Positions 3,858-59,725 of a DNA stretch of 64,000 nucleotides are shown in pieces. The notes below the pieces were generated by a model that saw nothing but the letters and a program-made list of their open reading frames with translations, did not search any database and was not told where the DNA came from. The stretch's first letter is position 1, and each line of letters starts with the position of its first letter. This stretch comes from a virus. The translations under genes were made by a program, and so were the position numbers. The stretch lies in the IMG/VR virus record IMGVR_UViG_3300021512_000004, positions 1 through 64,000 of that record; one strand, 5' to 3'.

Positions 3858-5569
3858 GGTCTTAGCCCCACAAAATTAATCCTGGCGGTGATTACGTTAA
3901 GGTTCTTCCAAGTGATCTGAACCTCGTCTGAGTTCATTCTAACGTACCTTATTATAGAGACAATCTTTATGTCCTCAGGCTCGACAGCTTGGCCAAGAGG
4001 GGCGTTTATAGATAGAACTATGTTGCCTCCGGTCTCGGAGCTGTTGGTGATCTGCCTTCGGAGGGAAGTACCGTCCCTTAGAACTATGTTAATGTCCCTT
4101 CTGGCAGTGTCCTGCTCCACCATAATAGTGTATCCGTTGTTCTCAACCGTTATTACAGAGGAGGAGGAAGCGATTTGTAGTTTTACTATGAAATCTCTTG
4201 TCCAAGTTGGCAACCAAAACGGAACCATTCTACCTGACCTGCGATTTAGGAACTCCCTAAATTTGGTAATGTTTTCTCTTCCCTCTATAAGCCACTCATA
4301 GGCTGTGACCATGTGTGGGTAGCCTCGCTTGGAGAGGATCTTAAACCCAGACGTTTCGAAGTCCAAGATAGCTGCGTTAGATTCAAACCCGGTTTGCAAT
4401 CCTTTAGCCCAGTTAGGCTCATTCGGATAATACTCCTCGGACAGGTAGGAGTCGGGGAGCGCCAAATCCTCTGGAGAGTATGCAGGGAATGTGGTTGGCT
4501 CAAACTCCCAAGGAATTGTCATCCTGGACACGTCAGAAGTAATGTTTTGCTGTTGAGCTGTCAACCCTCCCCCAATCCTAGCCAACCCCGCTGGACTTAT
4601 TGTACTGTTCTTCCCCCAGTTCCCATCTAAACCAGTCCCTACCGTTACACTGGTCGGAGTCAGACTAACCACTTCCTGAAGCTCAAAACCGTTGCCGTCG
4701 GACAACATAAGAAACCCTCCGACTTGATAAGCATACCCGTAGGTCGGGACCAGGATAACAGTATCCCCAATTAACGCATCTTGAGTTAGCTTGGTAGCGT
4801 CAGTCCAGATAGGGACGGAGAACATCCGCTCTTGCCAGCCGAATATTAGATTGTCCATGTACGCTCTAAAGTTGTCCTGCATAAGATAGGTGTATCGAAG
4901 ATCTAGTCTTGGAAGATACCTAACCCCAGTCCTCTGCTCAGACCCGTCCGCAGCTTCCATAACAACTGTAGCCCACTTGTCTACCTCAACGATGTCCGAT
5001 GACCAGTCGATATTCGAGAAGAAGTTTGTGACCCTGGAACCTAGAACGCTGACGCTGTGAGTTTCTGAGGAGATAACCCACTCATAAAGCGCGGCAATAG
5101 CAGGAGGGCCGGTTGGGCTAATATTGATAGTGTAATCTAAGGACTCCAACGGCTGCATAGTGTACGGAAGTGGGCCGGTTGGGTCTGTAATAGTCAGCCC
5201 AGAGATGTTTATTTTATTTAGAGCTGTGAGTTGTTTTGTTGAAGATAAGTATCCATTCCAAACCTCTACATCCCTTTCCTGGGTAGACAGAAGGTTGCCC
5301 ATCTGCAGAAGGTTAGGGGTAATCAGAATCCTTTCATAGAAGGTGTCTGTAAATTTGTAAACTGCTTGGGCGGTAATAACCTCCCCGGTGGTGTTTACAG
5401 GAGTGTTATCTGTAACGGTAACGCTATCTGCAGAGGGGGCAATCTTTAGATTAGCTACATAGCTGGCTGGCCCATAGGGTTCATAGACTATCGTAGCGGT
5501 GGCGGGGTTCCTGCCCAACGCCTCGGAAGTGATGAAGCCTACAAAACTCTCAGCATTAATTACAGGCAT
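3854..5569 (-). CDS. Baseplate / distal tail protein
   Basis: 571 residues. The C-terminal third has the look of tail proteins at this locus in lambda-like and marine siphophages (ILSKRGYPHMVTAYEWLIEG, then FREFLNRRSGRMVPFWLPTW). The N-terminal half is beta-rich with many Thr and Val. By gene order (tape measure, paralogous tail genes, this gene, hub, tip) it should sit at the tail end and connect tube to hub. Four bases separate it from the upstream gene, and it overlaps the hub gene by 4 bp. Confidence 0.65.
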   Translation of the reverse strand: MPVINAESFVGFITSEALGRNPATATIVYEPYGPASYVANLKIAPSADSVTVTDNTPVNTTGEVITAQAVYKFTDTFYERILITPNLLQMGNLLSTQERDVEVWNGYLSSTKQLTALNKINISGLTITDPTGPLPYTMQPLESLDYTINISPTGPPAIAALYEWVISSETHSVSVLGSRVTNFFSNIDWSSDIVEVDKWATVVMEAADGSEQRTGVRYLPRLDLRYTYLMQDNFRAYMDNLIFGWQERMFSVPIWTDATKLTQDALIGDTVILVPTYGYAYQVGGFLMLSDGNGFELQEVVSLTPTSVTVGTGLDGNWGKNSTISPAGLARIGGGLTAQQQNITSDVSRMTIPWEFEPTTFPAYSPEDLALPDSYLSEEYYPNEPNWAKGLQTGFESNAAILDFETSGFKILSKRGYPHMVTAYEWLIEGRENITKFREFLNRRSGRMVPFWLPTWTRDFIVKLQIASSSSVITVENNGYTIMVEQDTARRDINIVLRDGTSLRRQITNSSETGGNIVLSINAPLGQAVEPEDIKIVSIIRYVRMNSDEVQITWKNLNVITARINFVGLRP

Positions 5570-5572
5570 CTT

Positions 5573-6466
5573 CTACACACTCTCATCGTAAGTTATGCCA
5601 TACCTTCCAGAATCCCATACAGGGTCTGTCTTAGAGTACCACGGGAAAACTCTCCAGTTGGTTAGGACTATAGCCTCATCGTCTATATATAAGTTATCTA
5701 CTCGGTTCATCCCTTTGATTCTGCCAAGGGGGATGTACTCTCCAACTGGGCTGACGGCATAAATAAGGATCGGGAGCAGGAGTCCTTGAGAGTTCAGTAC
5801 GTCTGGGATAACGTCCCACAAAGGCTCGTGATAAGCTTCGTGAGAGGTACCTCTACACGTTCCCCACGAACCTGGGACATAGACCTTACCACAAGATAGC
5901 CAGGTTGGAGTTCCGTCAACGTCTGCCCTTATTATGTTCTTTGAGTAGTTTGAAGTATGTATGCTTGTGGTCCCGGAAAAAAATAGACTGTGGTAAGAGG
6001 ACCACGGAACCGCCTCACTCCCCCCCTCCGTGTAATGACCGTAAACATACTCCCCGCCAACATAGCTTCCGAATTTTTCCACCTCTCCAATACCGAAGTG
6101 GACATAGTTAAGGGCGTCCTTTTTAACAACTACGTGTAGGTAGTTTGCTCCAAGGTAGAACCAGTAATTCAGAACTCCGGCCACAACCCGGTTAACCGTA
6201 GTGTGGTGAGTTCCCCAAGAGTCCTCAGGCTGCGACCCCCAGTTAGATCCTCCAGAGTATGAGGTGGACATAGACAAACGCCAGCCGTCAGAGGTCTCCA
6301 TAAGGTTATAGAACTTCCAATTCTTTCTAAGGTTCAGGACATGATACCCGCTGCCGCCAGGGTCCGGCCCGCTATACCTGACTGTGTACCCATTAGAGGC
6401 CGCAAATACCCCCAATGAATCCAGAAGTGTGGATTTATCTGCTACCGCTCCAGTTTGTTTAGGCAT
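5573..6466 (-). CDS. Virion/tail protein, paralogue A of tandem family
   Basis: 297 residues, beta-rich. It shares MPKQTG at the start, NGYTVRYSG, HFGIGEVEKFGSYVGGEYVY in the middle and DESV at the end with the next two genes, so they are tandem duplicates. The HFG(x)GE(L/V)EK(F/I)GSY(V/T)GGEY block is the most conserved part. It starts one base inside the stop of the preceding paralogue. This is likely a tail or adhesin subunit. The general fold resembles phage virion proteins with repeated sugar-binding-like sheets, but the function is unproven. Confidence 0.72.
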   Translation of the reverse strand: MPKQTGAVADKSTLLDSLGVFAASNGYTVRYSGPDPGGSGYHVLNLRKNWKFYNLMETSDGWRLSMSTSYSGGSNWGSQPEDSWGTHHTTVNRVVAGVLNYWFYLGANYLHVVVKKDALNYVHFGIGEVEKFGSYVGGEYVYGHYTEGGSEAVPWSSYHSLFFSGTTSIHTSNYSKNIIRADVDGTPTWLSCGKVYVPGSWGTCRGTSHEAYHEPLWDVIPDVLNSQGLLLPILIYAVSPVGEYIPLGRIKGMNRVDNLYIDDEAIVLTNWRVFPWYSKTDPVWDSGRYGITYDESV

Positions 6467-7410
6467 TATACGCTCTCATCGTGGGCTACTCCGTTGTCGG
6501 ATGGGTAGGAGCGGTTGTAGGCGGCACTCTCCCCTGGAATGGCAGTTAAAGGAAAGCATCTCCAATTAGTAGCTATCACTTGCTCTTTTAGAGGAGCTTG
6601 ATCTGCCCCCATCCTCATCCCCTTAAGGCCCGGTATGTACCCAACAGGAGAAAGGTAGGCCGTGGTGCCGGGGTAAACCAGCAGCATCACCGGAGGCATA
6701 GTGTATTTGGACGTAGTTATTGTTGGATTCCTGGAACCGGAGTTCTCAAATACTGAGAAAACTCCAGAAGGTCCGATGGTTCCCTGCCCCCCAGAGATTG
6801 AAGTATTTATTATCCTGCTGTAAGAGGGGGTGCCAGTTAGATCGGTACGAACAACGGTAGCATATGCGTCGTAGGTAGTTTTATTAGTTCCGATAATATT
6901 TGCAGTAGTAGCAAAGTCATAACTTCTGCTTTGTGGCAAGTAGAAAGAGTGGCTAAGACAGTATTCCCCCCCAGTGTAGCTGCCTATCTTATCCAACTCC
7001 CCGAAGCCGAAGTGTTTATACCCTGGCCCCTCTATCTCAAAAGCTCCGTTAAAGTAATTTGGCCCGATGTAGAACCAGTACTTCCTTGGGGTAACGGGAG
7101 TGTCTATATAATTGACGGCTGTGGGGATGGTGGGGTAGGAACTTCCAGGCTGATCTGCTATCCCAGCCCCTGGAGTGTACCCTGTGGCCAAAGCAAAATA
7201 GAAAATCTCATACGTCCCTAAGGCATGGCCTGCATACCCTCCTATGATATTAAAGTACTTCCCTCCCTTCTCCAAGCTGAGATGATCGTAGGCTGTACTT
7301 GTTGCATACACTCCATAGTAATTAACAGTGTACCCATTAGCCGCAGCAAATGTCCGCATCTGTGACAGCAGGTCTTTAGCGTTGGTATAAGTTCCAGTTT
7401 GTTTAGGCAT
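6466..7410 (-). CDS. Virion/tail protein, paralogue B of tandem family
   Basis: 314 residues, beginning MPKQTGTYTNAKDLLSQ and ending GVAHDESV. It has the shared HFGFGELDKIGSYTGGEY block. It is more divergent from its neighbours around residues 170-250, which could reflect different binding specificity. It overlaps paralogue C by 8 bp and is in the same operon, so the three copies are probably made together. Confidence 0.72.
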   Translation of the reverse strand: MPKQTGTYTNAKDLLSQMRTFAAANGYTVNYYGVYATSTAYDHLSLEKGGKYFNIIGGYAGHALGTYEIFYFALATGYTPGAGIADQPGSSYPTIPTAVNYIDTPVTPRKYWFYIGPNYFNGAFEIEGPGYKHFGFGELDKIGSYTGGEYCLSHSFYLPQSRSYDFATTANIIGTNKTTYDAYATVVRTDLTGTPSYSRIINTSISGGQGTIGPSGVFSVFENSGSRNPTITTSKYTMPPVMLLVYPGTTAYLSPVGYIPGLKGMRMGADQAPLKEQVIATNWRCFPLTAIPGESAAYNRSYPSDNGVAHDESV

Positions 7411-8350
7411 TTTCGTTGTACGCCACCGCGAAATTTTGTGAACTCCACCCTACCCCGTTCTTAGCGATAAGAGGAAATACTTTCCAGTCATCATACACGA
7501 CATCCTCAGGAGCAAGGTTTTCTATGTCTATATTTAACATTCCTTTAACTTGTCCTATTGGGTAATTGTAATATACGGGGTCATCCGGGTTGACCTTCTT
7601 CTGGGCGTACACAATTATAGGGAACATGTGCTCCCTACCACTATCCGCGCTAGGGCCATCATCCCATAAACCTACATACAGTCCGTTTATATAATTGGGG
7701 TGGACGTAGGTGTAACACATGGTCCCTCTGGCAGAATAGTTGGCAGCATAATGTCCCCCAATCATGAGGTAGTTTGGGGACATCCCATCAAAGTCAGCCC
7801 TAACGGCTCCACTTATTCCGTTGTACCTAGTCCCCCAAATTGAAGTAAACATCAGGTTGTTATCTTCCCTGAATACGTTACTTCTCCAACCGGATGACAA
7901 GTAATGCCCATAGACATACTCCCCGCCAACATAGCTTCCAAACTTCTCAAGAACTCCGCATCCAAAGTGACTGTACACCTTAGACTCAACCTCATGTATA
8001 ACATGAACATAGTCTGAAGTGATATAGGTCCAGTAACTTGGGATACCGGACGACCTTACATCTGATACAGTGGTATTTATCCCGGCTATCTTTGAGTCAT
8101 CAGGGTGAGTCCCCCAATCAGCCCCAGAAGAGTATGCTGTGGATATCGACAGCCATATCTGCTCTAGTGATGGGACAGCCATAAAGTTAAAGAACTTCCC
8201 CCCTCCAGAGATATTGAGGGTGGTGTTTGCAACATTGGAAGGGTCTGGGCCAAAATAATTAACCGTCCAGGATCCTTGAGCCAATACGGCTGAACTAACC
8301 TTATTGAGGAGGTCTGGTCCGTCAAGAGCTTCACCAGTGGAAGTTGCCAT
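7403..8350 (-). CDS. Virion/tail protein, paralogue C of tandem family
   Basis: 315 residues with the shared block HFGCGVLEKFGSYVGGEYVY and the ending AVAYNENA. The N-terminus MATSTGEALDGPDLLNKVSS differs from copies A and B, but the layout is the same: ~25-residue helix-like start, WTVNYFG, sheet-rich body, FPL near the end. It lies two bases after the fourth, more distant member. Confidence 0.72.
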   Translation of the reverse strand: MATSTGEALDGPDLLNKVSSAVLAQGSWTVNYFGPDPSNVANTTLNISGGGKFFNFMAVPSLEQIWLSISTAYSSGADWGTHPDDSKIAGINTTVSDVRSSGIPSYWTYITSDYVHVIHEVESKVYSHFGCGVLEKFGSYVGGEYVYGHYLSSGWRSNVFREDNNLMFTSIWGTRYNGISGAVRADFDGMSPNYLMIGGHYAANYSARGTMCYTYVHPNYINGLYVGLWDDGPSADSGREHMFPIIVYAQKKVNPDDPVYYNYPIGQVKGMLNIDIENLAPEDVVYDDWKVFPLIAKNGVGWSSQNFAVAYNENA

Positions 8351-9259: not shown

Positions 9260-12200
9260 TTACCCTAAAATGGTCTGAAAAGATTTTTTATTGGCCTTCA
9301 CATGGTTCAAGATTATTCTGGCCCCTTCTGAAGAGGACAACGCTGCATCAAGAACTGAAGGTCCGTCAACTGCGTTTATTATACGAGTTTCTCCTTGGTT
9401 TACTACCGGGGCAGGCATAGAAGGCATCGTCATTGGCTTGGCCGCAGTAGCGGACTGCTGCATTCCTCCGGCGGCAAAGGCGGCTATCTTACCTGAGTTC
9501 AAAGTGTGAATGAAGTTGTCCCCTAATAGTTCGGTCGCCTTAGCATTCAATACAGCCTCCCCGTTTGATAGTCTGACCGGCTGTTTATTCCCCCCCTTCC
9601 CTACTATCGTTCCGAACACTGAGTCAGAGGTCCCGGTTCCTGGCCCTTTAATTATCCCTCCGGTGGCCATCCTAACCACCCCTCCGGTAGCGGCTTTTAC
9701 TACCCCTCCGGTCGCAGCCCCTCCAAACGCCAAAGACATCCCCAGACTTTGCAACATCTGATTTACTCCGGCCTTTATTAAGGTAGTAGCAATATCTTTA
9801 GCCAGAGAGTTGAATATCCCCTTCATAGAGTCTCCGAAAGACTCCCCGTCAAGGATTGCTCCAGCAAGAGCATCCCCAACCTCGTCCATAGCCACTACTA
9901 CACTATCAGAGAGGTGTTCTGCCACCTTGCTCATGTCACTATCAAGACCTTTCAGCCTCTCTGACAGTATCTCTGGGTCCAACCCTTCGAAGATATCAGG
10001 GATCGCTCCAAGCTCCTCCTGAGCGGCCCTTGCCAGCTCCGCAAGCTCATTATCTAGGGTCACTATCTCCTGACTCAACCTTTCTACGTCTACGCTGGCC
10101 TTCTCTATTAGGTCGGCACTACCTCCAGAGTCAACAACCTTTTGATACTCGTCTCTCTGCTTAGTGGAGGCTTCCTTCTCAAGTTCAGCAGCCTGACGTT
10201 GATTTTCAATATCCTGAATCTGAGTTTCTGGGGGGACTACTCCATACTTCTTAAATTTAGCTAGCTTATCTGAGCCTCCGTCGGATGTCTGCGGGGCTGT
10301 GCGAAGGAGTCTTGCCTTCTCTAACAGGACTTCGGATACCTTGTTGAGGGCTTTCTTAAACCGATCAAACACCGAGTCAGAGGAGAGTATCCTATCTTTG
10401 TCAGCCTGAAGTTGGGCCAGAGCCTCGTCCTTAGACATCCCTCTGACAAGATTTAACGCAGACTCCTGCTCCGCCGCCTCGAGAAGTTGGCGCTCAAGCT
10501 CCTTGAGGTTGGCAGAAAGGTTATCAAACCCTTCAGAGGCTGTTCTCGCCTGAAGTTCCTTAATCCTGGCGTCAGCGATCTTAACCGCAGCCTTATGAAC
10601 TCTCTCCGACAACTTCTGCTCTGCTTTAGCCCTGTCCTCCAAAGCATCCTCAGTGAATTGCGCAAGTTTGGCAGACTCCTGACTGTACTTTTCCTTCAGT
10701 CGGTTGATAGTTCCAAGATTTTTGGAACTCTTATCATCCTGCTGACCTTGGAGATCTCGTCTAATATTCTCTAATACTTTTTCCTGCTCTTTCTTTTGCA
10801 GGGAGAGTCTTTTAGATATTAGGTCGTTGTCGTCAGTCTTGGCAAGATCCTCCAGAGAACTTCTTTCCTTGCCTCTGAGCCCTCTATTTATCTCTTTTGT
10901 CAGCCTGCTGATCTCGGTCTTAGCCTTGGGATCAGACAGAAGCCTTTCAGCATCCTTGATTGCTTGCTTATCGGCAAACGCAGAAGCCTGGAAGGATCTC
11001 CAAAGCTCCATGATCTTTACAATAGACTCTATGGCAGGAGGGAGGGATAGCTTTCCGTCTACTACCTCCGCCTGCTCAACCTTCTTCCGCAAAGCTGGAA
11101 TGTCTCCCCCAGCCTTCCTTACCTGGGCGACCTGACTAGATAAGCTCCCAGCCTCATTAGACTTTAAGACTTTGTTAAGGTCCTCCCCGCCTTGAGCAGA
11201 TTCAAACTGACCTATGGCAGAAAGGGTCTCCTGTCTTTGGGACTCTATTAGTTTCTCGGCCTGTTCCGAGGCTGTTGATACTATGTCCCCAAGGTATTTA
11301 TTTACTTTGGCTATAGGGCTCTTAAGCAGAGCCTGCCCAATAACCTCAGCTCCCACAGCATCCCCGGACAGTTCGGATATCCTTTCAGCTTGAGCCTCTG
11401 CCCACACCTGTAATAAGCTATCAGGGTCAGTAAAGTCAGCATCCTTAACTGCGGCTAGAAGAGCTTGTTTTACTACTTGATCCCCAACTCCCTTTGTTCC
11501 AGCAAGGGTTAGAATCTTCTTGAAGGTTTCCTTCTGTAGATTCTGCTTTACTGCGTCCCTAACCGCTATCAACTCTGGGCTCAGGGCTTGGATAGATTCC
11601 TTAATAGAGGTTATGTAGGCTGCGATAGCCTTAATTCTTTCATCTCTTGAAAGGGTGGAGGTGCCGTCTATAAGGTCAGAGATTTGTTGGGAGCTGGCCC
11701 CAACTTCTATTGTTTTGAGTGCTTGTAGGAGCTTGGGATTTTGAAACACCTGGCTAGCATCTGACAGATCTATCCCGCCTTCTATCGCCCGGTCTACCTC
11801 TTCAACTGCTTTCTCGCTCATCAGCTGAAGTTCGACAATTACCCCAGAGATAGCTCCGTCCATCCCGGAAGTAAGGTTCGACAACCTGCTTAAGGATTGA
11901 TCCAGATCAGCTAAAGTCTTTCCAGACAGGGCTGTAGAGGCCCCTGTTATCTTAGGAAGTAAAACTTTACCTCTCACTTCAAGACTGGCTGAGGAGTACT
12001 CTTCCACCGCTGCTAGGATTGTCTTTTGAGCTTCTTGTGACAGGGAGTCGAAGTCGGTTATGACCGCCCTTATCCCGGCAGAGAAGTCCCTCTGAGCTTC
12101 CTGAATCTTCAGGACTCCGGAAGCGGCATTCCCTTTACCTTTGGAAGAGTCTAGATCAAACTCATCAACCCCTCTCAGCACTTCCTGGAGGTTGCCTTCC

Positions 12201-15200
12201 GCATCTTCCAACTGCCCTCTGGCCGCATCTACCTTATCAGCAGATACCTGCATAGCTGTTCTATTGGCCTGGAATAGGCTTGCAGCCAATTGAACAACAG
12301 AGAAGATGCCTAATACTATGCCTAGCGGCCCGAGTCCGGCCAAGAACCTTGGAAGAGCCCTGGCAAACAATTTGACGGCCTGTGCGCCTTTACCTTGAGC
12401 TGCTCTTTTCGCCCCGCCTTTCATCAAACTAGAAGCGGAAGACAGTTTAGGCTTCGCCTTCCCCCCTGTAGCAGATCCCGCCAACCCTAACAATCCTAAA
12501 GCCGTTACGAATTCGGAACTACCTACACCTTCCTCCTGAAAAGCTAGACTCCCCGCACTCCCTGCAACTGCTCCAGAAACTATCCCTACTACCTTCCCAA
12601 TAACTCCTTTACTCAGGAATCCTCCAGCCACCGCTCCGACTGCACCAGGAGCAAACGTCCCCGCGAACCCTTCTTCCCCTGCGAGTTTTAAGGATTTATC
12701 TAACTCCACCAATCCGGAGATGGCCTCAGTAAGGACATCCACGAACCCTTCTAAAGAGCGAACCCCTCCTCCAAATACCTCATCTCCAAAAGCGGTGAAA
12801 GCGGCTCCTAAGTTAGATAAGCTGTTGGCCAGAGACTTCATTTGAATCTCAGAACCTTCCGCAGCAGCCTGACCGAAAGTTATCCGCTGCTCAGCCTCGC
12901 TTAGATTGTCAAGATTCTTGATCAGGGCGGTGATGGCATTGGTAGCCCTAACATTAAATGACCTTCCGAACAGTGCCTGGGCATCGTCGGCAAAGCCAAT
13001 TCTTTTCAGCTCCTGTAACACAGACAACAGAGGGTTCTCTGCGTGTCGGAACTGAGCAAACATGCTTTTGATAGTGGCTTTGGACAGATTTTCGCCAAGC
13101 TGTTTGTACCGAGTTTCCAGAGCCCCAATCGCTTTATTGCTGGGAGTGAATAGCTCGGTGATTGCCTGACGTAAGCCGGTAGCAACAGTAGAAGGTTTGA
13201 TGCCTGCGTTTCTCAGCGTAGTAGCGGCTGCCAAGTATTGCTCTGAAGTAAGGTTATAGGAGTCAGCAATCTGAGAGCTTAAGGACAAGATCGTTTTCAG
13301 ATCCCCTGCAGTAAGCTTGGAGATGTTGATGGCCTTGGTCAGTTGGTTTGCAAGGTCAATCTCATCCATGTCTTTAAAGACATTTCTCATGGTGGTCAGG
13401 AGGTCAGCTGCAAGCTCTAACCCGCTATCAGTAGCGGCTGCAAACTGAGCAACAGACTCCAACACCTTTGGAATATTGTCAGCTTCCACCCCGGCCTGGG
13501 CCAGTACCCTAGCAGTTCTTGCAATTTCATCCGTAGTAAACTTGGTGGTAATAGCGACCCTTTTAATGGACGCTTCGATACCTACCATGCCCTTATCCGT
13601 AACCCCGGCTACAGCTTGCAGGGAGTACAGTTCCTTATCTAAAGATACCAGACCTCTGGCCAGTGCGTTGACGGCCCCTAGAACCTGATACAATGCTCCA
13701 TACCCAAGAGCAAACCTAAAGAACTGCCTAATAAGCAGAGACCCTTGACCTAGGTGGGTGTTTAGCTCTTTGTGGGCTCCAGCAACATCCTTAACCCCTT
13801 TGGCCTGGGTCTTCGCCCCCTCAGCTGCCTTCTTAGTCGCAGTCGCCCTTTGAGCCTGAAGCTGTTTCACTTTCCTTTCTGACTCGGCTAAGGATTTGAG
13901 ACGCGCATCTAGAGCCGTGACGGCTATTTGATATTTTCCTGACTCGTGAGTAAGCCGCTTTACGACCTTAATGTTGTCCCCTGCAGCGAGAGACCTGGCC
14001 TTCAAATCTGCAATATTGTCCTTAGCAAACTGCTTGAGTCTTTTAGCCGCTGCAGGATCCTGGACTCTACCTGCCTGTCCCTGCTTACCAAGATCCGCTA
14101 CACTGCTCACTCCTAAGTTTTTCAGAAGGTTTGAAGGGGATTGTGGATCACTGGCCGACCCCCGAGCAAAGGAGAGTCTGGACTCCCTCCTAACTCTAAG
14201 CTTTGCCTCTACTAAGGATTTCCTTTCTACAGCTGCTCTCTGCTTCTTTAGGGCTACTTCTTTCTTAAGCTGTGCGGCAGCTTTAGTTTCCTGCTTCTGC
14301 AGAACTCTTCTTACTGCAGCAACCTTCTCCAACTGTCTATTATTCTTGAGGATCTGCTCAGAATAGTCGTGAGTCTCCTTCCCAAGCCTAGTATTTTCCT
14401 TGAGTAGTGCAGACTGTTCAGCATCTAAAGCTGACTTCGCCTTACTAACTAAATTGGGTGGCAGTGTTCCTGATCTTGCAGAAGAGGCAAGGGCTCCGAC
14501 ATCCCCTGAGCCAAAGACAGTTTGCCTTTGAGAGGCTCTGCCTTGAGAGGACTTTAAGTATGCTGCGTCCCTAGTCGCTCTGGAGGAAATCCCCTTGCGA
14601 GCCTCAATATTTTGATCTTGAGTTCTTCGGATCTTTGAAGTTATGCTGGACAGTTCAGAGGTGTCTTTAGAGAACTGCTTGTTAAACCCTATCAGCCCTG
14701 CCTTAAGATCCTCAAGCCCTGGGACGTTCCTAAGTCCGTGGATAGCCTCGGAGATCGCACTTTTCGTTGCCTCTTGAGCAGTAACCTGCCGGGTAACCCC
14801 GCTCCTTTGGAGAGGTCCCATACCTTCTAGGCGTTTTCTGGAGATCCTCTGATCCCCAATTCCAACCAGGCTCTGAGCCCTGCGAGCGTGAGCCCCACCA
14901 AGGCCCTTATTGGCTCTGACAACTTCATTGGTTCTACGGGCAACTGCTTTCAGCGCCTCTGCTTGTTGATACAGGGCGTCCGTTCTGGACTTAACCTTAG
15001 AGGTAAACGACTCTAGTTGGGACTTTGAAAGCCCTTCTGTAGACTTCTTCCCAACCTCTTCTATTGCAGCTATTCCGGCTTGAGCCTGCTTCTGGAATCC
15101 TTTTATAGCCGAGTCTAACGACTTAATAGACTTTCGTTTGTCTGCAGGAGACTGGAAGTCTCCTCTGGCTATTTTTTCGAGTTGCTTAACGGCATCAGAG

Positions 15201-54566: not shown

Positions 54567-55321
54567 AAAACATACAATTGAAAATACTGAGTCCGCTAGT
54601 AGGAAATGAGTTCCCAATTCCAGCTTACTCAACAGAGGGATCTGCCGGAATGGATCTCAGGGCCTGCATTGAGCAGGAAATGGCTGTCAGTAAAGGAAAA
54701 GCAGTCTTAATCCCTACTGGGGTAGCTATACACATAGAAGACCCTGCATACGCTGCAGTAATCTTACCAAGATCAGGTCTGGGCCATAAGCATGGAGTAG
54801 TCCTTGGCAATCTGGTGGGGCTGATTGACAGTAAAAATCATAGGTAAATTGCTGTCATTAAATTCGGTGAATTGCTGGGAAATCCTTAGAGTTCTTATAC
54901 CAAAGCGGAACTGGAAACGGTAAACGTAACGGTTTGAAAAGTTAAGAAATTGGACAATCAGCAGCCAAGACCCTGAAAAGTGTAAAAGTATGGGTAAGGT
55001 TCAACGACTAGGTGTTGAGTTAGCTAGACGATACTACACCCACGAGCGCCGGACACTTAAATTAAGTGAAGATATAGTCTGAACTTTAGGGAAACTTAAA
55101 GAAACAAGGATAAAGAGCCTTGTGATAACACGATGGATTACCAAGGACAGTTGATGATCTCCTGCTGGAATAGGAGCGATGTGAGCTACATAGTGAAGCC
55201 TGGGGAGCGCATAGCCCAGTTGATCATTGTTCCTGTAGTGCAGGCAGAATTTGAAGTGGTTGAGGAGTTTAGCCAGAGTCAAAGAGGGGAGGGAGGATTT
55301 GGCAGTACTGGAGTTTGTTAA
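54563..55321 (+). CDS. dut: dUTPase, interrupted by a group I intron
   Basis: Exon 1 is 54563-54832 (90 codons) and exon 2 is 55136-55321; joined they give 151 residues. Motif 1 [10 protein letters not shown], motif 2 [10 protein letters not shown], motif 3 GLIDS|DYQGQ (split exactly by the intron), motif 4 [12 protein letters not shown] and motif 5 [10 protein letters not shown] are all present. It hydrolyses dUTP to dUMP, keeping uracil out of DNA and feeding dTMP synthesis. Without splicing, exon 1 would end shortly after the active-site motif. Confidence 0.92.
54833..55135 (+). ncRNA. Group I self-splicing intron in dUTPase
   Basis: 303 nt. The 5' exon ends GACAGT and can pair with GCTGTC inside the intron (about 54851-54856) to form P1 with the required U-G pair; the intron ends in G before GATTAC. 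Core elements are visible: P-like AATTGCTGGGAAATCC, Q-like AATCAGCAGCCAAG (54956-54969), R-like GTTCAACGACTA (54999-55010), S-like AAGATATAGTC (55069-55079). No endonuclease ORF is inside. Confidence 0.92.
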
Positions 55322-57247: not shown

Positions 57248-57317
57248 CCCCCGGGCTGGTTCCTTATAGTTGTAAATTTACTATTTGGAGCGTTAAACGT
57301 AAGGAATTTTACGCAGC

Positions 57318-57371
57318 TCTAACACCAGATTCAGCTGCGCGCTTGGCGCGTCCGCTGGAATTAATGTTAGA
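57318..57371 (-). other. attC-like site 1
   Basis: Ends TCTAACA/TGTTAGA pair; inner boxes TTCAGC and GCTGGAA pair with one unpaired G; the loop GCGCGC/GCGCG folds. The consensus-like reading (TAAC-ATTAA-box with extra C ... GTTAGAG) is on the minus strand. Nearly identical to site 6. Confidence 0.75.
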
Positions 57372-57399
57372 TTGCGATTGATTTTTGGAGGATGAGAGA

Positions 57400-57624
57400 G
57401 TGGATAAAGCAAAAGAGATTCGCAGGGGATTTGTTGATATTTGGAAATGGATAGGCTCGCCAGATTGTTGGTTTTTAATAATGGTTACGTTTTGCCTCTG
57501 GTGCATATTTTTAGCTCCAGAATCAGCTATCGCTGGGCTTGCGAATACATTTATTGTTATCGGGCTGGTTATAATTTGGCATTTGGCAAGAATCGCAAAA
57601 TCCTTAGAGGACAAGGCAATCTAA
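57400..57624 (+). CDS. Cassette protein: small membrane protein
   Basis: 74 residues from GTG 57400 with GGAGG eight bases upstream. Two transmembrane segments (CWFLIMVTFCLWCIFLAPES, LANTFIVIGLVIIWHLARIA). The TAA stop lies in the end of attC-like site 2 (ATCTAACAA), typical of cassette genes. Function unknown. Confidence 0.65.
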   Translation: MDKAKEIRRGFVDIWKWIGSPDCWFLIMVTFCLWCIFLAPESAIAGLANTFIVIGLVIIWHLARIAKSLEDKAI

Positions 57625-57745
57625 CAACCAGCATAACGGGTGAGCGGATAATTTAACTGAGGATGGTGAGCATGGAAAACCAGAACGAACAGAAGCAACA
57701 AGAAACCAGCGGTGAAGAAGCGAATCCGGTTGATGTAATTGTTAG
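57621..57745 (-). other. attC-like site 2
   Basis: 125 bp; end boxes CTAACAA/TTGTTAG (7 bp) and inner boxes CATAAC and GTTGATG with one unpaired G. Minus-strand reading ends GTTAGAT. Same family as site 5, including the internal ORF start. Confidence 0.75.
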
Positions 57746-58067
57746 TGCTCGCTGCCCGGACTGCGCTGCTCAGCCTGGCATGCTGCACAAGCTGGGCTGT
57801 GATGTTGAAAAATGCCCCGAATGCGGCTGGCAATATATCAGCTGTGACTGCCCCGCCGAAGAGACAACGGCTCCCCGCCTCCTCTGGTCTGGCGAATGGC
57901 CAGGGATAAGGGAGTGCCGCGAATTTGGATGGTATTCAAAATTGGTTTCTGGGCGCGGCTGGGTGAGCTGTGACAAAAGCGAGCCTGGCGCAAGCGAGAG
58001 CCTCAACCGCCTTGCCGTTGACGCCACATGGGATAAAGAAAAAGGGCGCTACATACTAGAGAGCTAA
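57672..58067 (+). CDS. Cassette protein: zinc-ribbon protein with attC-encoded start
   Basis: 131 residues from ATG 57672 (GAGG nine bases upstream), with start codon and first ~22 residues (ending SGEEANPVD) inside attC-like site 2. The folded part has CPDCAAQPGMLHKLGCDVEK and CPECGWQYISCDC, a Cys-rich ribbon known from small bacterial proteins; Trp-rich C-terminal half. The TAA stop lies in site 3. The translated attC peptide is shared with the gene at 58768. Confidence 0.65.
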   Translation: MENQNEQKQQETSGEEANPVDVIVSARCPDCAAQPGMLHKLGCDVEKCPECGWQYISCDCPAEETTAPRLLWSGEWPGIRECREFGWYSKLVSGRGWVSCDKSEPGASESLNRLAVDATWDKEKGRYILES

Positions 58068-58121
58068 CGCTCGCATAAACTGCGGAGCGTCAGCGGAGTC
58101 AGATTTTCATGCGATTGTTAT
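58065..58121 (-). other. attC-like site 3
   Basis: Ends TAAC/GTTA; inner boxes TCGCATAAA and TTTCATGCGA pair with one unpaired C. The loop region (GGAGCGTCAGCGGAGTC) is less regular. Minus-strand reading ends GCGTTAGC. Confidence 0.75.
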
Positions 58122-58138
58122 AAATCTGGAGTAGAACG

Positions 58139-58384
58139 ATGGCAACAAACAAATACGATTTGGACACAGCTTACATCGGAAAAAACCTTAAAATATTGCA
58201 GCGGGATATTGAGCAATATACCCCTCAAGAGATGAGGACAGCTTTGAACAAGCTGGCAGACACGTGCCATAACTTTGCTAAGTGCGGTCGCTGTAGCGGC
58301 TACAACACGTCAACGATGCGACACGATGCGGCTCACTGGTTTTGCTATGACTGCGCCGAGAAGTACCCACTAAAAGCCTTATAA
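58139..58384 (+). CDS. Cassette protein: small zinc-binding protein
   Basis: 81 residues; GGAG nine bases before ATG. The C-terminal half has CHNFAKCGRCSGYNTSTMRH and WFCYDCAEKY, a likely zinc ribbon. The TAA stop lies in site 4. Function unknown. Confidence 0.65.
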   Translation: MATNKYDLDTAYIGKNLKILQRDIEQYTPQEMRTALNKLADTCHNFAKCGRCSGYNTSTMRHDAAHWFCYDCAEKYPLKAL

Positions 58385-58432
58385 CGCTCAATTAAACGGT
58401 TGCGTAGCAATCCGGTTTAAATTGCTTGTTAT
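58381..58432 (-). other. attC-like site 4
   Basis: Ends ATAAC/GTTAT; inner boxes CAATTAAAC and GTTTAAATTG pair with one unpaired A; loop stem GGTTGC-GTA-GCAATCC. Strong, regular fold. Confidence 0.75.
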
Positions 58433-58458
58433 ATTTAATATTAATTCGGAGAAAAATC

Positions 58459-58707
58459 ATGAGTGAAATTGAAACAGTTGCAGCGAGTCTCACTATTGAA
58501 ATGAATGTCACATGCCCTAATCCTGACTGCGGGGATTATATAGATTTGCTGCGATCAGAGTATACGAACGGGGTGGATCATAATGAGGACGGGGGTTTGC
58601 TGCGCCAGATGTTCCCTGAAAATCATAGTAATGAAGATTTTGAGTGTGATGATGTCATTTGCACAAAATGCAAAACAATGTTCAATGTGCGCGAGCTGGA
58701 ATGGTAG
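58459..58707 (+). CDS. Cassette protein: small zinc-finger protein
   Basis: 82 residues with GGAG upstream. CPNPDCGDY and CTKCKTMF give a four-Cys zinc site. The stop (TAG) lies just before attC-like site 5. Function unknown. Confidence 0.65.
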   Translation: MSEIETVAASLTIEMNVTCPNPDCGDYIDLLRSEYTNGVDHNEDGGLLRQMFPENHSNEDFECDDVICTKCKTMFNVRELEW

Positions 58708-58712
58708 TAAAT

Positions 58713-58838
58713 ATAACACCCTGCATAACGAGTGAGCGTGGACAACAAAATGAATGAGGTGAACACGATGGGCAAGAACGAAGCCACGAAGACAGAACCC
58801 AGCGGCGAAGAAGCGAATCCAGTTGATGCACTTGTTAT
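58713..58838 (-). other. attC-like site 5
   Basis: 126 bp; ends ATAACA/TGTTAT; inner boxes TGCATAAC and GTTGATGCA with one unpaired G. Minus-strand reading starts ATAACAAGTGCATCAAC and ends GTTATAT, close to known long attC layouts. Confidence 0.75.
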
Positions 58839-59070
58839 GCGGCAACTAGATAAAATCACTGGATATTTTCAGCCTAAACGCACGGAAACGCTGCGCGATG
58901 AAGCCCTGCCATTTGTTGGTCGGCTATTAACATTCGAGGCTCTTTGGCTGATAGATAAAGAAGATGGGGGCCCTTACGTCGGACAATGGGCGATGCGCCC
59001 GATTAATGAAGCAGGGGGCTGGTTGCCAATTGGGTGGGTTCCCGAAGAAGACATTAGACCTGCTACATAA
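58768..59070 (+). CDS. Cassette protein with attC-encoded start
   Basis: 100 residues from ATG 58768 (GAGG eight bases upstream) inside site 5; the first ~22 residues (TEPSGEEANPVD) are encoded by the attC. The body has LPFVGRLLTFEALWLIDKED and INEAGGWLPIGWVPEEDIRP. The TAA stop lies in site 6. A start at the in-frame ATG in the site's right end is also possible. Function unknown. Confidence 0.6.
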   Translation: MGKNEATKTEPSGEEANPVDALVMRQLDKITGYFQPKRTETLRDEALPFVGRLLTFEALWLIDKEDGGPYVGQWAMRPINEAGGWLPIGWVPEEDIRPAT

Positions 59071-59119
59071 CACCCGATTCAGCTGCGCGTTTGGCGCGTC
59101 CGCTGGAATTAATGTTAGA
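59067..59119 (-). other. attC-like site 6
   Basis: Ends TAACA/TGTTA; inner boxes TTCAGC and GCTGGAA with one unpaired G; CGCG loop stem. Almost identical to site 1 over ~50 bp. Confidence 0.75.
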
Positions 59120-59152
59120 TTGCTAATTAATTAATTATGGGGCGATAACGAG

Positions 59153-59341
59153 ATGGCCGAAGTGAAGTTCTGGTGTGACAGCGGGGCAAACATCCATTCT
59201 TGCAATACTGAAACAGTTGATACCGTTGATGATTTAGGGTTAGACGAAGGGGAGTGGGAAAAGCTCACTGATGACGAAAGGCACAAGCATGTTAGGGATT
59301 GGGCTAATAACTACATAGAGATGGGGTGGGCAGCAATCTAA
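59153..59341 (+). CDS. Cassette protein (DUF7167-like)
   Basis: 62 residues. WCDSGANIHSCNTETVDTVD and LGLDEGEWEKLTDDERHKHV with GW near the end match the short DUF7167-type phage family. The presence of this family here links phage genes with cassette exchange. The stop TAA lies in site 7. Confidence 0.7.
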   Translation: MAEVKFWCDSGANIHSCNTETVDTVDDLGLDEGEWEKLTDDERHKHVRDWANNYIEMGWAAI

Positions 59342-59373
59342 CGCCCACATAAGCGACTTGATGTGATTGTTAT
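59338..59373 (-). other. attC-like site 7, unusually short
   Basis: Only 36 bp. Ends CTAAC/GTTAT; boxes CACATAAG and CTTGATGTG pair with one unpaired G around a three-base loop CGA. The minus-strand reading (TAAC-AAT-CACATCAAG ... CTTATGTG-GGC-GTTAGAT) mirrors the Vibrio-type spacing. Confidence 0.75.
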
Positions 59374-59383
59374 AAATGAAACT

Positions 59384-59533
59384 ATGAAAAAGTATATTTG
59401 CGTTAGGTGTTTAACCGTAATGAGCCGGGTTGAGCTTAGAGACGGAGCAAAACTTAAAAAGATTTCTATTGAGTTAAGCCGGAAAATTAAAATGTGCAAG
59501 TCTTGCACATGCCGGACTTTCTATAGTATTTAA
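59384..59533 (+). CDS. Small zinc-finger protein after the last attC
   Basis: 49 residues: MKKYICVRCLTVMSRVELRD ... MCKSCTCRTFYSI. Two Cys pairs suggest a zinc ribbon, in general plan like short Com-type regulators. The ribosome site is weak. Confidence 0.5.
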   Translation: MKKYICVRCLTVMSRVELRDGAKLKKISIELSRKIKMCKSCTCRTFYSI

Positions 59534-59725
59534 TTTGGGAGCAAGTAAACGTAAGTAAAAAGACAGTTTTGAATGCTCCGAAGGTGAGCGTAGAGATAAC
59601 TATTGTGTATATTGCAATGGGAAATATCGAGGTGTCCAGAGCATTACGACAATCACGAACAATCTAAGAAAGGCGCTACCGTCTTTCAAGGCAACATAAT
59701 TAGATTGTTTTAAAGAGGGTAAAAT
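59534..59725. other. Non-coding gap with decayed attC-like hairpin
   Basis: AACAATCTAA (59658-59667) pairs with TTAGATTGTT (59700-59709), and GAAAG/CTTTC lies inside. These ends resemble the CAATCTAAC...GTTAGATTG ends of the array with C and G lost, so this may be a degenerate site 8. A 32-codon TTG ORF (59569-59667) ends at the same place; coding is doubtful. Confidence 0.4.

Follow-up and report, generated by a model that had tools for sequence, protein, structure and literature searches.

An array of single genes separated by attC-like folds within a phage genome raises the question of whether these are genuine integron cassettes and, if so, how they could be moved and expressed there. Integrons are known chiefly as bacterial platforms governed by a fixed rule, whereby each gene points at its own attC so that it can be read by the integron promoter. 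The window considered here is a stretch of 64,000 nucleotides, namely bases 1-64000 of an IMG/VR virus record (IMGVR_UViG_3300021512_000004; 74,740 bases in total), which encodes a GpA-type terminase and a tail tape-measure protein; the nearest phages found to it have a primase in common with it at ~42% identity. A first-pass annotation made from the sequence alone had described the array as a phage-carried attC cluster without an integrase, and the whole 74.7-kb record indeed yields no match to either the integron integrase model (TIGR02249) or the tyrosine recombinase domain (PF00589, Phage_integrase). There being no intI, and no attI having been identified, the record does not hold a complete integron (intI plus attI); the absence of an integrase nearby is in line with a cluster of the CALIN type. 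Elsewhere in the window, a group I catalytic intron (54804-55101; Rfam RF00028, 101.9 bits), whose core resembles Staphylococcus phage K-type phage introns (83-87% over ~100 bp), apparently directly precedes a dUTPase-like C-terminal reading frame (55133-55321), and the tail region (5573-8350) codes for three consecutive, apparently paralogous proteins of ~300 aa.

The array spans positions 57317-59375, and its first-pass description holds in outline: seven attC-like sites, each with outer AAC/GTT boxes and an inner stem with a single unpaired base, separate six one-gene units, which have the composition of cassettes (one short gene and one attC, with the gene end overlapping a box). Site A (57317..57372, minus strand), with the inner box ATTCCAGCGGA, precedes cassette 1 (57400..57624, plus strand, as are all further genes), an ORF with GGAGG upstream coding for a membrane-like protein of 74 aa from no known family. 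There follow site B (57619..57747, minus strand, as are all further sites), cassette 2 (57672..58067; 131 aa), site C (58062..58123), cassette 3 (58139..58384; 81 aa), site D (58379..58434), cassette 4 (58459..58707; 82 aa), site E (58711..58840), cassette 5 (58768..59070; 100 aa), site F (59065..59120), cassette 6 (59153..59341), and the final site G (59336..59375). The product of cassette 6 is, as had been claimed, a DUF7167 phage protein (Pfam 4.5e-10; phrog_8831 5e-24). The assignment of four products as zinc-binding proteins fares less well: cassettes 2, 3, and 4 and an ORF past site G (59384..59533, plus strand) do show CxxC motifs, with weak Pfam matches (E 0.007 or worse), and the fourth of these genes lies beyond the last site and is probably resident, because no site comes after it. 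TAA stops fall inside a site arm in five of the six units (for cassettes 1, 2, 3, and 5 in the arms of sites B, C, D, and F, respectively), the remaining stop being a TAG (58705-58707) a few bases upstream of site E. The stops had thus been correctly placed in the site ends, but these ends are the R' and not the R'' side. Sites B and E enclose the start codon and ~25 codons of the following gene, B also holding its ribosome site, and the N-termini of cassettes 2 and 5 are accordingly attC-encoded (57672-57747 and 58768-58840), the leader in the window being of the SGEEANPVD type; comparable attC-encoded N-termini occur in two other phage contigs (L033 2793-2900; L159 4185-4221).

To score the sites we built a profile of our own from 52 bacterial attCs in gammaproteobacterial arrays adjoining integron integrases; it has seven outer and ten inner pairs, with the bulge always in one place. 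This fixed-box geometry was preferred to a covariance model because, in aligning these variable-loop sites, MAFFT had broken up the right arm. Standing in for the standard models with which the first-pass annotation had proposed to check the sites, this bacteria-trained profile scores five of the seven strongly, namely B, C, D, E, and G at 25.1, 36.8, 44.3, 40.1, and 45.2 bits. Since 7.7 Mb of dinucleotide-shuffled window sequence gives just one match of at least 25 bits (and 41 of at least 16.8), these five stand on their own, whereas A (15.0 bits) and F (16.8 bits) do not. Other viral sequence (489 kb) likewise contains one match of at least 25 bits, and dropping the Alteromonas sites from the training set changes the scores little. 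Each a near-copy of the other, sites A and F have a spacer shorter by one base, and their inner box recurs in a 32.5-bit site of L048. With five sites scoring 25-45 bits in a span of 1.8 kb and two weak copies, the array displays the two or more closely spaced attCs that define a CALIN. A gene stop inside the box is equally frequent in phage (69/139) and bacterial (32/79) arrays.

That the sites are instead phage hairpins, either terminators or RNA-processing sites, that happen to resemble attC would accord with their folding from both strands and their location between co-directional genes. We hold this to be very improbable, given the match of 25-45 bits to bacterial attCs with the correct strand-specific bulge and boxes, a strand asymmetry that terminators do not need, and the transfer of two cassettes of other phages with ends exactly at the boxes (see below). 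Moreover, IntI1 recombines related phage sites in vivo, with five of six phage attCs being active (Qi et al. 2023, PMC9892861). The terminator or RNA reading was dropped on the strand asymmetry and transfer evidence.

The orientation of the sites is where the array departs from a typical integron. Every site in the window is on the minus strand and every gene on the plus strand, i.e., the sites are turned against the genes, a feature that the first-pass annotation had overlooked. Reading against the genes raises the score of all seven (for site E, 40.1 vs -0.9 bits), and in all seven the unpaired base lies in the half nearer the next gene. In attCs of the aadA type and in those of Vibrio, the half closest to where the cassette's own gene terminates contains the extra base, and the same is seen in the Alteromonas attCs. 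The standard arrangement of a cassette, with each attC presenting its R'' end to its own gene, is accordingly not seen in the window. The inversion of the sites relative to the genes implies that the mobile unit is an attC with the gene following it, rather than a gene with the attC following it.

We then asked how widespread this polarity is, using two gene-blind pattern scans of IMG/VR with generic attC words (at least 120 stretches each), which favor gammaproteobacteria-like attCs. Polarity was called for adjacent same-strand site pairs from the strand with the clearly longer ORF (ORF lengths, with no gene caller). The first scan gave, among the matches listed, 127 inverted, 27 canonical, and 81 ambiguous intervals, and 55 inverted, 6 canonical, and 4 tied contigs among the 65 non-redundant ones in the same matches; the second gave 50 inverted against 4 canonical intervals, and 21 against 2 contigs, again among the matches listed. 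Over both scans, 177 of the 208 scorable intervals in the matches listed are inverted and 31 canonical (contigs 55/65 and 21/23), the ambiguous intervals, about a third of the viral total among these matches, lying outside the scorable count, and the contig sets overlapping slightly, as the second includes the IMG/VR copy of phage H101 (L270) and a contig already present as L125 (L298). The identical pipeline applied to bacterial intI-linked loci, a control made up of gammaproteobacterial, intI-proximal arrays, yields 79 canonical and 4 inverted intervals among 83 scorable ones, and 22 canonical, no inverted, and 2 tied contigs. The contrast between the first scan (matches listed) and the bacteria is significant by Fisher's test (p=6e-34), with intervals, which are not fully independent, as the unit. 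It persists with the ORF-length ratio set at 2 or 3 (inverted to canonical 66:13 and 24:6 in phages, among the matches listed; 2:56 and 2:30 in bacteria), and when only contigs below 50% GC are retained (among the matches listed).

The viral classification of IMG/VR was checked via the terminase in a minority of records, and the terminase-matching ones among the matches listed comprise 16 inverted, 1 canonical, and 1 tied, including two whose terminase matches fall below the Pfam cut-off (L167 and L202). ORFs with non-identical homologs in other phage arrays are likewise mostly inverted (26 vs 6 canonical, among the matches listed), and some, if not all, of the latter overlap a homologous ORF that is inverted and lies on the opposite strand. 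In published phages, where sites can be compared with annotated genes, H101 and MW202573 are inverted and TJE1 is canonical. Inversion in phage arrays is hence a strong bias and not a law, as seen in TJE1 and the 31 of 208 canonical intervals. One contig (L150) bears two arrays on opposite strands (4341-6453 and 12132-12705), each inverted relative to its own genes.

Evidence for the predicted unit of mobility comes from two pairs of other phages, each with exactly one cassette in common. The first pair (L207/L227), from different metagenomes, shares 332 bp at 100% identity amidst unrelated flanks on both sides: the identity starts at the AAC of one attC, spans this attC and the following gene, and stops at the next TAAC. 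The second (L159/L175) shares a 651-bp unit at 94% identity, again with attC-TAAC edges and unrelated flanks, whose product reads like a putative Mom-type DNA modification enzyme. The edges in both pairs are the R'-box cut points, as predicted for attCs inverted relative to the gene. As a positive control, two parts of the Alteromonas chromosomal integron have in common a unit with attC-defined edges of the type seen in L207/L227. In a unit common to L150 and L229, one boundary falls on the opposite flank of a site, an exception that this reading leaves unexplained.

For the cassettes of the window itself, sharing is at the protein level only (33-56% identity): cassette 4 has homologs in L223 (33%, between two attC sites) and L150 (50%), and cassette 6 has one in L171 (56%, also between two attC sites). 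Two window cassettes thus recur as attC-bounded units in other phages, bearing out the expectation of the first-pass annotation that boundaries would fall at the sites in relatives. Site C matches a site of L033 at 91% identity over 58 bp, and site D one of L051 at 95% over 62 bp, each of these adjoining a different gene; site E is 77% identical to L033 2773-2898. The variable cassette content that had been anticipated in relatives was found in L033, where an array of different cassettes comes just before a stretch that is conserved just past the array in the window (59568..59686, plus strand; 79% identity over 119 bp). The conserved gene following both arrays (window 59569-59700; L033 4620-4800) has an apparent two-base insertion in the window that breaks the frame and seems to be either a sequencing error or a real frameshift. 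At the array end in both L033 (4464) and L051 (minus strand, 4967) is the motif TAACACTGGACTATAC.GACTA, which may represent an entry point or what remains of a half-site; TAACACTGGACTATAC was also weighed as an attI-like site, and was absent from every other locus examined. The 16-base word GCGAATCCRGTTGATG recovered 42 stretches, and of those viewed in context only L033 had an attC array, the others looking like chance matches. Comparison of the array DNA with phage and plasmid records gave no informative match, an exact-word search of IMG/VR with the cassette 2 protein gave none, and the ~42% primase relatives L001-L004 showed no detectable sites and are too distant for an exact empty site. 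A search for DUF7167 in 369 gammaproteobacterial genomes was uninformative, as its control matched nowhere.

These observations also bear on whether the array merely represents ordinary host cassettes that were caught by chance and are now decaying without continuing exchange. The lack of an integrase in 48 of the 50 array-bearing virus records, and the spacers of sites A and F, which are off by one base, would be compatible with such a history. However, host cassettes show the opposite polarity, no phage-bacterium cassette homologs were detected at 1e-6 within the sample compared, single cassettes are identical or near-identical in unrelated phages, and both boxes and the bulge are kept in almost all sites. 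Chance capture is already disfavored on these grounds, and we regard it as improbable.

The two remaining array-bearing virus records encode a true IntI. One (L165) also carries a GpA terminase and a lambda-type portal, and the other (L197) a serine integrase and a phosphoadenosine phosphosulfate reductase gene. In both, the attCs are oriented away from intI, as in ordinary integrons, and the cassette genes are on the intI strand, reading towards intI, in reverse polarity. These intI genes with reverse-polarity cassettes were located at 2422-6463 in L197 (L242) and at 16127-19008 in L241. The likely ancestral layout in these two phages would be an operon, the cassettes, the attI side, and intI, all in one reading direction.

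On the whole, we consider it probable that the window harbors a phage-borne CALIN in which each attC lies upstream of and against its gene, and in which an IntI supplied in trans moves cassettes such that their operon-readable orientation is kept. By this account, the integrase would come from the host or a co-infecting phage, and would fold the strand in which the phage genes have their coding sequence. The mobile unit, an attC with its downstream gene, would be cut at TAA^C in the R' box, as extrapolated to the window from the two other phage pairs. The array would be transcribed from a phage operon rather than an integron promoter, and only cassettes with the gene facing along the operon would be expressed and retained. 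Such selection would result in genes antisense to their attCs, here and in most phage arrays.

Alternatively or in addition, and to this we give tentative weight, inversion may have been selected for mobility: with genes reading with the fork, the recombinogenic attC strand would come to lie on the lagging-strand template, where it would fold and move more easily than in chromosomal integrons. The GC skew of the window flips sign near 38-40 kb, and of the two strands of the array it is the coding one that is G-rich; further, G-richness of the recombinogenic strand is seen at 57 of 65 phage loci (among the matches listed) vs 6 of 14 bacterial ones, and excision rises sharply when the V. cholerae array is inverted onto the lagging template (PMC11023631). 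However, GC skew also tracks transcription, and this measure hence repeats the gene-strand result and cannot separate out replication. Beyond the operon-orientation account for the window, we find evenly poised the wider proposal of a phage-specific cassette pool, separate from the bacterial one, in which attC-gene units are exchanged singly between unrelated phages by an IntI that is sometimes phage-encoded, with a polarity set by phage transcription that may also raise mobility. If the systematic reversal is true, phages would run a parallel cassette economy, whose cargo, including DNA methyltransferases and the Mom-like DNA modifier, can counter host restriction. The polarity would also serve as a sequence signature separating phage from bacterial cassettes, and it offers a fresh angle on cassette origin and a direct test of how integrase strand choice shapes array orientation.

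Among known systems, the closest are the phage genomes with CALINs and integrons described by Qi et al. 2023 (PMC9892861), who screened isolate genomes and found CALINs to be rare in them. Like the window, those phage CALINs are attC clusters without intI, and they carry small unknown genes and DNA methyltransferases. The arrays of H101 and TJE1 are there called typical of bacterial structure; as re-read here, H101 and MW202573 have the inverted polarity of the window. The passages of that study considered here are silent on how attCs are turned with respect to the gene strand, a polarity that may have been noted in other literature, and they show no cassette transfer between phages. The sedentary chromosomal integron of Alteromonas (A. 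lipotrueae, L056/L057/L112) shares with the window one type of attC sequence (e.g., TAACAANCGCATCAA...TTATGCGGGCGTTA) and one-gene cassettes, but its attCs are the window sequence type turned round: the Alteromonas gene leads into its own attC on the R'' side, whereas that of the window leads into the attC of the next unit on the R' side. The reverse integron of Treponema (PMC3607928, PMC7691350) resembles the phage loci with intI (L197, L165/L241) in having intI and the cassette genes on one strand. However, in Treponema it is intI that is turned towards attI, the gene-attC relation being canonical with the stop in R'', whereas in the phages the intI-attC relation is ordinary and only the cassette genes are reversed. 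The phage-borne CALIN is thus an already known kind of element (Qi et al. 2023).
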